From: Verrucomicrobiota bacterium
GTDB taxonomy: Bacteria; Verrucomicrobiota; Kiritimatiellia; SS1-B-03-39; UBA6053
Length of the DNA stretch: 64,000 nt
Direction: 5' to 3'
Assembly: GCA_020831625.1 (NCBI GenBank)
Contig: JAFIGD010000009.1
Coordinates: 62,001 to 126,000 of the forward strand
The position numbers were made by a program, and so were the translations under genes. This document shows positions 23,039-54,450 of the stretch, one piece after another. The notes beneath the pieces were generated by a model. The model saw only the letters and a program-made list of their open reading frames with translations, had not been told where the DNA came from and made no database searches. Numbering within the stretch: the stretch's first letter is position 1; each line of letters starts with the position of its first letter.

Positions 23039-23088
23039 TTTTCCGACATTCGGAAACCGAAAGGGTTGATTTTCCGAGGATCGGAAAA
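23039..23088. promoter_or_regulatory. Tandem TTTTCCGA-N3-TCGGAAAA palindromes upstream of dnaE
   Basis: Two 19 bp palindromes, at 23039-23057 and 23070-23088, each with 8 bp arms (one base off in the first), separated by 12 bp so that centres are 31 bp apart, about three helical turns. They lie 101-150 bp before the dnaE ATG. The same arrangement recurs at 53153-53202. This looks like a paired operator on one DNA face, or a dispersed repeat. Confidence 0.7.
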
Positions 23089-52444: not shown

Positions 52445-53143
52445 ATGACTGAACACACACCTTTTGATTTCTGGTACGCGGTCCAGAACACCCGGATTTT
52501 ACAACTGCCCCGCAATAATCTCGAAACCTTCGGCACCACCCGGATTCAGTATCATTTACTGACCGAATCCATGGACACCGTCAACGAGGTCCGTGTCCGC
52601 GAAGGCTCTCTGAACGCCTCCCAGCCGCAAATTCTGCTGCCGGACCACTTTAAACGGAAAAACCTTCAGGGATTCGAAGACGAGGAAACCAACCGCTTCC
52701 TGGAATGGCTCAAAACCCATCAGCCCGACATGCGCTTCCTGCAGTACGGCTTCACCATCAGCAAACAGGACGTGAAAGACACCATCCTCCACGATTCCAT
52801 CGAGGTGGTGACCGAAAACGTGATGAAGCAGGTGGCCGACCGCGATCAGGGCAACTGCGCCGTGCTCCTGGGGGTGGAACAGCCCTGGGAGGTCTGCCTC
52901 TTCAAAATGATGGTCGATATGGTCGAGCGCTCCGCCCCCGGGCAGATCTCCGCCCTGCAGGAGCGCAACCTGCTCCCCAACCCCAACCGGGCCGCGCAGG
53001 AAATCGAGCAGGAGTTCCAAATGGCCGAACGCGACGCCGCCCGCGTCCCCTATCTCTACAAACAACTCCACCGCCACGGCGTCTTCGAAGAAAACCAGGA
53101 CCGCTTTTTCGCCCTCGTCCGTTCTTCCGAACGGAAAAACTGA
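52445..53143 (+). CDS. Conserved-looking cytoplasmic protein of unknown function
   Basis: A 232-residue soluble protein, no signal peptide or membrane helix. It begins F-D-F-W-Y-A-V-Q-N-T and has I-L-L-P-D-H-F-K-R, F-L-Q-Y-G-F and C-A-V-L-L-G-V-E-Q-P-W-E-V-C-L-F-K-M-M-V-D segments and a helical C-terminus. I do not recognise the family. It is divergent from the ATP synthase operon, 83 bp away. The codon use is like its neighbours, so it is a real resident gene. Its last codons overlap the first of three spaced palindromes. Confidence 0.8.
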   Translation: MTEHTPFDFWYAVQNTRILQLPRNNLETFGTTRIQYHLLTESMDTVNEVRVREGSLNASQPQILLPDHFKRKNLQGFEDEETNRFLEWLKTHQPDMRFLQYGFTISKQDVKDTILHDSIEVVTENVMKQVADRDQGNCAVLLGVEQPWEVCLFKMMVDMVERSAPGQISALQERNLLPNPNRAAQEIEQEFQMAERDAARVPYLYKQLHRHGVFEENQDRFFALVRSSERKN

Positions 53144-53202
53144 TATTTCGCGCTTTCCGAACATCGGAAAATAAGACAAGACGTTTTCCGAACTTCGGAA
53201 AA
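53125..53202. promoter_or_regulatory. Three phased palindromes before the glycosyltransferase gene
   Basis: Perfect or near-perfect copies of TTTTCCGA-N3-TCGGAAAA lie at 53153-53171 and 53184-53202, with a degenerate copy (TTCCG-aa-CGGAA) at 53125-53136 inside the preceding coding region. Centres are at about 53130.5, 53162 and 53193, so spacing is 31-32 bp. The last copy ends 6 bp before the glycosyltransferase ATG. The same pair precedes dnaE at 23039-23088. Confidence 0.75.
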
Positions 53203-53208
53203 CTTAAT

Positions 53209-54306
53209 ATGCAAAGGATTCATCAACTGGTTGCCGGTTACAGCAAAGGCGACGCGATTTCGAACGAGGCCCGGAAAATCCGGGGCCTCTTCCTCAGCCT
53301 TGGCGCGGAAAGCGAAATCTTCTGTGAAATTTCCCGCACCCTGCCCGAACTCCGCAAAGACTGCCGCGACATCGCCTCCGCCAAAACGGCCATCGGCCCG
53401 GAGGATGTCGTTATCCTCCACCTCTCCATCGGCTCGGAGGTGAATGATGTCTTTCCCGCTCTGCCCGGCATCAAAGTGATCCGATATCACAATATCACCC
53501 CCGCCCATTATTTCCGGGCGCTCAATGACCACATCGCCCATCAGCTTGAGCGCGGACGGCATCAGCTCAAAGCCCTCGCCGGGACCGCAGTTCTGAACAT
53601 GGCCGACAGCGAATACAACGCGCAGGAGCTTCGCGAGGCCGGTTATGAAAACGTGCATGTGTCCCCGCTGGTTCTGGAACTCAAACGGCTGACGGATCAG
53701 CCCAACGCCGAAATCCTTGAAACCTATGCCGACGGGATGCTGAATATTCTGTTTGTCGGCCGCTGCGCGCCCAACAAACGCCTTGAGGACCTGCTCCACG
53801 CATTTTATTATGTTCAGAAGTATGTGGAACCCCGCTCCCGCCTCCTGCACGTGGGCAGTTTCGCGGGCACCGAACAATATCTGGCCATGCTCAAGGCCAT
53901 CGCCCGCGATCTGGATCTCAAAAACGTGAATTTTGTCGGATCGGTTCCGGAAGACCACCTCTGCGCGTATTATAAGGTTTCCGATGTGTTTCTGTGCATG
54001 AGCGAACATGAGGGATTCGGCATCCCGCTGCTTGAGGCCATGCAGGCAGACATTCCCGTCCTCGCCTACGCCTCCGCCGCCGTGCCCGAAACCATGGGCG
54101 GGGCCGGACTGGTCTTTCACGATAAACTGTTCGACGAACTCGCCGAGTGGATTGTCCGCGCCGGCCGCGACGCGGAACTGCGGCAGTCTCTGCTCCAGGG
54201 GCAACAGGCGCGCATCCGCGCCTATGAAACCTCCGACCCCGGCGCCCGCCTCCTCGAACTCCTTTCCCCCTGGCTCCACCTCTCCCGCACGAAATCCGCC
54301 CAATGA
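53209..54306 (+). CDS. GT4-type glycosyltransferase
   Basis: A 365-residue GT-B enzyme. The N-terminal half contains R-Y-H-N-I-T-P and V-L-N-M-A-D-S-E-Y-N-A-Q-E-L; the C-terminal half has L-F-V-G-R-C-A-P-N-K-R, V-N-F-V-G-S-V-P and the E-x7-E motif in S-E-H-E-G-F-G-I-P-L-L-E-A-M. It transfers a sugar from a nucleotide donor, probably in envelope polysaccharide synthesis. Start at ATG 53209; a frame running back to 52705 overlaps the previous gene and is not real. Gene ends just before a hexamer array. Confidence 0.9.
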   Translation: MQRIHQLVAGYSKGDAISNEARKIRGLFLSLGAESEIFCEISRTLPELRKDCRDIASAKTAIGPEDVVILHLSIGSEVNDVFPALPGIKVIRYHNITPAHYFRALNDHIAHQLERGRHQLKALAGTAVLNMADSEYNAQELREAGYENVHVSPLVLELKRLTDQPNAEILETYADGMLNILFVGRCAPNKRLEDLLHAFYYVQKYVEPRSRLLHVGSFAGTEQYLAMLKAIARDLDLKNVNFVGSVPEDHLCAYYKVSDVFLCMSEHEGFGIPLLEAMQADIPVLAYASAAVPETMGGAGLVFHDKLFDELAEWIVRAGRDAELRQSLLQGQQARIRAYETSDPGARLLELLSPWLHLSRTKSAQ

Positions 54307-54318
54307 CTTTGCTTCATC

Positions 54319-54441
54319 TTAATCTTAATCTTAATCTTAATCCTAATCCTAATCCTACTCGATCCCGCCCCCCTCTTCCCTGACCTCTGTCTCGAACTCG
54401 AACTCCCAACCCGAACTCGAACTCGAACTCCCAACTCGAAC
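54319..54441. repeat. Two hexamer arrays between glycosyltransferase and lptF/G
   Basis: Four TTAATC and two CTAATC units (54319-54354) are followed by a second array of CGAACT/CCCAAC-type hexamers (about 54391-54441). The first has the same unit as the 42038 array. The 144 bp gap contains no gene. Confidence 0.88.
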
Positions 54442-54450
54442 TTCTCCCCC

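Follow-up and report, generated by a model that had tools for sequence, protein, structure and literature searches.

Does a pair of palindromes situated directly before a glycosyltransferase gene act as a switch for that gene, or does it belong to something larger? The pair lies in a 64,000-nucleotide stretch (the window) of contig JAFIGD010000009.1 from a Verrucomicrobiota bacterium of the class Kiritimatiellia. Two 19-bp palindromes were read in the window sequence, copy 1 (CTTTCCGAACATCGGAAAA; positions 53153-53171, centre 53162) and copy 2 (TTTTCCGAACTTCGGAAAA; positions 53184-53202, centre 53193), neither being assigned to a strand, and their consensus is TTTTCCGANNNTCGGAAAA. The centres are 31 bp apart and the end of copy 2 lies 6 bp before the ATG at 53209, exactly as claimed in the original prediction. 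The upstream gene (52445-53143, + strand) had no Pfam match and terminates with a stop codon at 53141-53143, 9 bp before copy 1, and the downstream gene (53209-54306, + strand) encodes a GT4-type glycosyltransferase (Pfam Glycos_transf_1). The latter gene is succeeded at 54307-54450 by runs of hexamers resembling CTTAAT/CCTAAT and CTCGAA. A second array of two copies, also unstranded and 31 bp apart, is present in the window at 23039-23088, with one copy (TTTTCCGACATTCGGAAAC) at 23039-23057 and the other (TTTTCCGAGGATCGGAAAA) at 23070-23088, 100 bp upstream of a dnaE-like gene.

A degenerate third copy had been proposed within the end of the upstream gene. This element (53123-53138, unstranded) consists of two abutting half-sites, TCTTCCGA (53123-53130) and ACGGAAAA (53131-53138), with a 0-nt centre in place of the 3 nt found in genuine copies. 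Half-site pairs in 554 kb of this organism's own genome comprised 56 with a 3-nt centre and a single one with a 0-nt centre, which was the third copy itself. Its codons are C-terminal and, as read from the sequences, specify LVRSSERKN* as compared with LVRRAERQQ* in congener G015, other congeners without the array being similar at this position. As the 0-nt centre was unique and similar codons occur in array-less congeners, the third copy is doubtful and was probably fortuitous.

Identical geometry at two loci had been highlighted and was present, 31 bp in each case, but this observation understated a pattern that extends across the genome and the class. In the window, nine matches were detected when up to three mismatches were allowed, as compared to a mean of 1.15 and a maximum of 4 in shuffled sequences. 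The own genome (4.89 Mb in 111 contigs) contained 190 exact copies of TTTCCGANNNTCGGAAA, for which composition alone predicts ∼0.01, and no copies of the reversed control; most copies in the sampled DNA of this genome were paired at 31 to 32 bp. Phased pairs were found in 80 of the 346 genomes of the class that were scanned, with no reversed-control matches in any genome. Copies numbered from hundreds to over a thousand per genome within the class, with up to about a thousand exact copies, and a phylum-wide scan detected at most two copies in any genome of other classes. Among the matches listed, named array records were assigned to Kiritimatiellae, Lentisphaerae or Verrucomicrobia, with a few PVC group or uncultured entries, and it was from these assignments that the class name Kiritimatiellia was derived. 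A search for TTT..AAA phased pairs in array-less genomes, as a test of other arm sequences, yielded only background. Six IMG/VR contigs (L127-L132) matched the phased-pair pattern, one of which (L130) had three copies in the Kiritimatiellia dialect, so that arrays may also occur in prophages or in fragments of host DNA. No description of the motif or of such Kiritimatiellae repeats was found in the open-access literature that was searched.

A local operator, or a small regulon including the glycosyltransferase gene, would be consistent with an array ending 6 bp before the ATG. This explanation was largely refuted by orthologous gene pairs lacking the array; the 190 genomic copies and the unrelated neighbours of arrays also speak against it, and we regard it as exceedingly improbable. 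Three relatives (G015, G581 and G187) retain the two genes with a gap of a few base pairs and no array, which is the outcome that the original prediction had itself named as refuting it. Array neighbours were varied housekeeping genes without a common function, their names being judged by eye from the sequences. A core regulon was also sought in array-poor genomes, and no gene recurred beside their few arrays apart from dnaE, which was near arrays in both G000 and G003. The suggestion of a regulon including the glycosyltransferase gene was thus not sustained.

Retention of an array with its gene in close relatives differed between loci, with absence at the glycosyltransferase pair and presence at an aspartyl-tRNA synthetase (AspRS)-like gene. 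Upstream of the latter, four congeners have arrays of 2, 4, 2 and 2 copies at a constant spacing of 31 bp, and the 12-bp spacers of G000 and G580 could not be aligned. Arrays are quickly gained and lost but, at loci that retain them, palindromes and phase persist and spacers drift.

Placement relative to genes was examined using gene calls from a home-made finder with a simple hexamer model. In samples of three genomes (G000, G012 and G065), arrays were chiefly intergenic. Among 59 cases in tandem gaps, the array was nearer to the stop codon of the preceding gene than to the start of the following one in 47 (P = 5e-6), with median stop-to-array distances of 8 to 10.5 bp. The shares of convergent, tandem and divergent gaps containing an array were 0.44, 0.28 and 0.31 for G012 and 0.55, 0.47 and 0.29 for G065; the corresponding values for G000 were 0.24, 0.10 and 0.07, the absolute shares for this genome being biased by the selection of stretches around known copies. 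Arrays that hug upstream stops or sit between convergent genes, where a promoter is absent, are a further argument against the claim of a regulon. Intragenic copies were prevalent in G081, a member of genus g4, with 85 of 141 copies (up to three mismatches) located within genes in sequence that was 89% coding.

The palindromes have a centre of strictly 3 nt and arms in clade-specific dialects, namely TTTCCGA/TCGGAAA in the own family, TTTCCAA with a GSC centre in family f4, TTTCCAA/TTGGAAA in f8, f22 and genus g17 of f10, and TTTCCAY/RTGGAAA in the remaining f10 genera, with TTTCCAT in G047. Centre-to-centre spacings were 22 and 30 to 32 bp, plus sums of these values. The spacers between copies contained almost no information, although the neighbouring copy at 31 bp was plainly visible in the profile, and no information was detected in the flanks outside the palindrome. 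In several genera, a repeated motif resembling AATCGCCAAAAC or GTTTTTGGCGATT was present in the spacers (genomes G404, G336 and G405; loci L020, L021 and L053), unlike the unconstrained spacers elsewhere, and may represent a second site or a recent tandem duplication. At L231 (G093) and L241 (G583), a related pair with a conserved spacer of about GTGAAAACACG was near LacI-type regulator genes in both genomes.

The location of arrays a median of 8 to 10.5 bp past the stop codon in tandem gaps could reflect an RNA-level element, either a terminator or a 3′ hairpin, particularly as these genomes have few intrinsic terminators. In a simple scan of the G000, G012 and G065 samples, no more than a few percent of genes were followed by such a terminator, whether or not an array was present. 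An array following a phosphofructokinase-like gene was, however, itself succeeded by an ordinary terminator in two species, and a search of Rfam produced no match. Two-sided changes at mirror positions in the arms were no more frequent than independence predicts, and the majority of single changes broke pairing, indicating selection on each half-site rather than on a hairpin. In combination, the strict 3-nt centre, the uninformative spacers and the absence of compensatory pairing point to DNA sites rather than RNA hairpins. A spacing tied to the DNA helix and the intragenic copies in g4 are likewise at odds with an RNA element, which was rejected on the absent compensatory changes, the Rfam result and the terminator scan and which we consider to have a negligible likelihood.

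Pair distances in G081 were near to multiples of 10.5 bp. In a discovery set (G081, G157, G035 and G032), 82 pairs at 69 to 600 bp exhibited phasing with an R of 0.45, a value attained by none of 5,000 jittered sets, and an open scan of periods peaked at 10.5 bp. Control words (TTTCC, GGAAA and TTCCRA) in the same DNA had R values of 0.03 to 0.06. A hold-out set of exact pairs at 104 to 158 bp was drawn from 13 genomes, of which eight had matches and seven were among the matches listed. The 75 pairs listed had an R of 0.775 (P about 3e-20) and a best period of 10.4 to 10.5 bp, and G442 by itself contributed 21 pairs with an R of 0.84 (P about 3e-7). Three pairs from G226, which is of another family, were unphased in this range. 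A second hold-out set at 284 to 344 bp (58 pairs) had an R of 0.49 (P about 1e-6), and the 50 pairs left after removal of G032 and of those parts of G081 that had been sampled had an R of 0.45. When the phase was set to zero at zero distance, the fitted period was 10.43 bp (bootstrap, 10.42 to 10.45). The pooled P values overstate independence, as G032 and part of G081 entered both the discovery and the hold-out analyses and some orthologous pairs are found in more than one congener. Long-range register was apparent mainly in genus g4; in family f6 (G226, G157 and G035), the few pairs at more than 69 bp were without register. The suggestion of a fixed helical phase was upheld in that spacing is locked to whole turns and spacers are unconstrained.

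Register was maintained within genes. Nearest neighbours in the same gene of G081 provided 27 distances with an R of 0.82 (P about 1e-8), and the phased copies occurred in genes resembling murC, cysS, tilS, dusA, coaBC and others. Eleven of the same-gene distances above 60 bp were not multiples of 3, and hence protein repeats are not an explanation. Periodicity of coding DNA is also an unlikely cause of phasing, as the control words were unphased and many distances were not multiples of 3. One in-gene pair, with copies 137 bp apart, was common to G081, G032, G442 and G319. Comparison of 80 bases detected 0 to 2 differences in the 17-bp palindrome and 14 to 22 in the other 63 bases, and in G319 the codons had changed from SKARK to SNAWK with the TTTCC and GGAAA arms unaltered; as its members were obtained by exact matching, this example illustrates rather than tests the constraint. 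The proposed coexistence of a protein-coding constraint with the site thus applied on a large scale in g4, the third copy for which it had been suggested being a weak example.

The high and variable copy number, the rapid gain and loss and the intergenic location near gene 3′ ends might be attributed to mobile or proliferating palindromes of the REP/BIME type, phased by happenstance. REP/BIME and GTAG/CGTC-tagged palindromes are indeed short, present in high copy number, extragenic and near gene 3′ ends (PMC3733652), and the present palindromes are similar in these respects. Those described here differ in having neither a GTAG nor a CGTC tag in the profile, no link to Y1 transposases and a helical register. 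Neither spacers nor flanks are duplicated together with the palindromes, copies occur inside housekeeping genes, and a chance phase, as judged from the controls, does not account for register over 10 to 30 turns. A RAYT/REP reading was rejected as Y1 (RAYT) transposases do not track the arrays: G012 had 589 phased pairs and two weak Y1 matches, and G423 and G440 had no phased pairs but 19 to 22 Y1 matches. Proliferation of this kind is consequently rated as highly unlikely. An uptake, partition or self-marking sequence (DUS-, parS- or defence-like) would be in keeping with genome-wide occurrence, clade-specific dialects and an even density along a closed chromosome. In G081, which is closed as one 3.88-Mb contig, array density was equal in two distant regions, and a biased chromosomal position was rejected on this basis. 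Neither of these regions was enriched over the other, and none of these functions requires register over 10 to 30 helical turns; a marker sequence is accordingly judged quite unlikely.

On balance, the palindromes are probably the sites of a putative dimeric protein of Kiritimatiellia that assembles cooperatively along a single DNA face and most likely structures the nucleoid. Dimers would occupy this face at intervals of two, three or more full turns of the helix, and register over tens of turns irrespective of coding status is what such an assembly is expected to select. The protein would structure the chromosome as a sequence-specific nucleoid-associated protein through wrapping, filament formation or looping, and phased arrays, which in array-rich genomes are mostly intergenic and often directly after a stop codon, may serve as strong nucleation points. 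Protein binding, oligomerisation and an architectural role are what we infer from the sequences. The multimeric binder of the original prediction is thereby supported by the whole-turn spacing, in contrast to its regulon. A variation in copy number of more than 10-fold within genera is odd for an essential architecture. The question posed by the glycosyltransferase locus can be answered in that the palindromes point to a chromosome-wide protein assembly and not to a switch for a single gene. A more far-reaching proposal, which we advance tentatively and would sooner doubt than accept, is that this bacterial class has something akin to chromatin. A sequence-specific protein would track a single face of the helix for tens of turns, palindromes would be selected in register across hundreds of base pairs, within housekeeping genes too, and the genome would in this way record a helical repeat of ∼10.43 bp.

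Bacterial nucleoid proteins seldom leave a readable sequence code, and here one is visible in the raw sequence, its helical register being measurable without experiment. The array code predicts the positions of the putative protein and supplies an exact bait for its isolation, an in-phase array being compared with one shifted by half a turn. The arrays also offer a test of the constraints that an architectural protein places on coding sequence.

The main rival to a nucleoid protein is a feast/famine (Lrp-like) global transcription regulator, whose dimers would wrap DNA on in-phase sites and tune hundreds of genes; we consider this possible but unlikely. Sites of the Lrp family are two or three helical turns apart from centre to centre, with wrapping of the DNA and several dimers on the same face (PMC2995911), and the present palindromes, at 22 and 30 to 32 bp and sums of these, resemble them. 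The AspRS array, near a gene start and retained in four congeners, would suit a regulator, and an Lrp/AsnC gene was found in all 19 array-bearing genomes tested. Such a gene was equally found in most of the array-less genomes tested, palindromes were upstream of the Lrp gene in just one of those gene regions that were read, and the array at the glycosyltransferase gene was not retained in congeners. Arrays between convergent genes, by upstream stops and, in g4, within genes are similarly difficult to reconcile with transcriptional control. A single-copy 159-amino-acid Lrp-like protein (L307-L325) occurs class-wide, mostly adjoining a ∼1.15-kb gene, and its HTH region scores weakly.

Three candidate binders (Lrp, NrdR and Y1 transposases) were considered and none tracks the arrays. 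Lrp has an attractive geometry but its presence does not follow the arrays, which differ further from Lrp/AsnC arrays in having hundreds of sites per genome, many of them intragenic. NrdR boxes are paired palindromes whose centres are an integral number of turns apart, 15 to 16 bp in Listeria (PMC12051234), and thus share the paired architecture and whole-turn spacing. NrdR is confined to ribonucleotide reductase genes, in contrast to the hundreds of copies by unrelated genes observed here, and is universal in the class with or without arrays and hence uninformative. CdbA of Myxococcus xanthus is a sequence-specific nucleoid-associated protein with 569 peaks in and between genes, and the likeness extends to hundreds of chromosome-wide sites that are intragenic as well as enriched in intergenic regions, with neighbours of no functional category (PMC7156744). 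The CdbA motif, in an organism of another phylum, consists of GC-rich direct repeats spaced by one turn, whereas the present sites are palindromes that have a 3-nt centre and keep register across many turns. By uniting the whole-turn spacing of Lrp and NrdR sites with a number and placement similar to those of CdbA, these sites favour a cooperative nucleoid protein.
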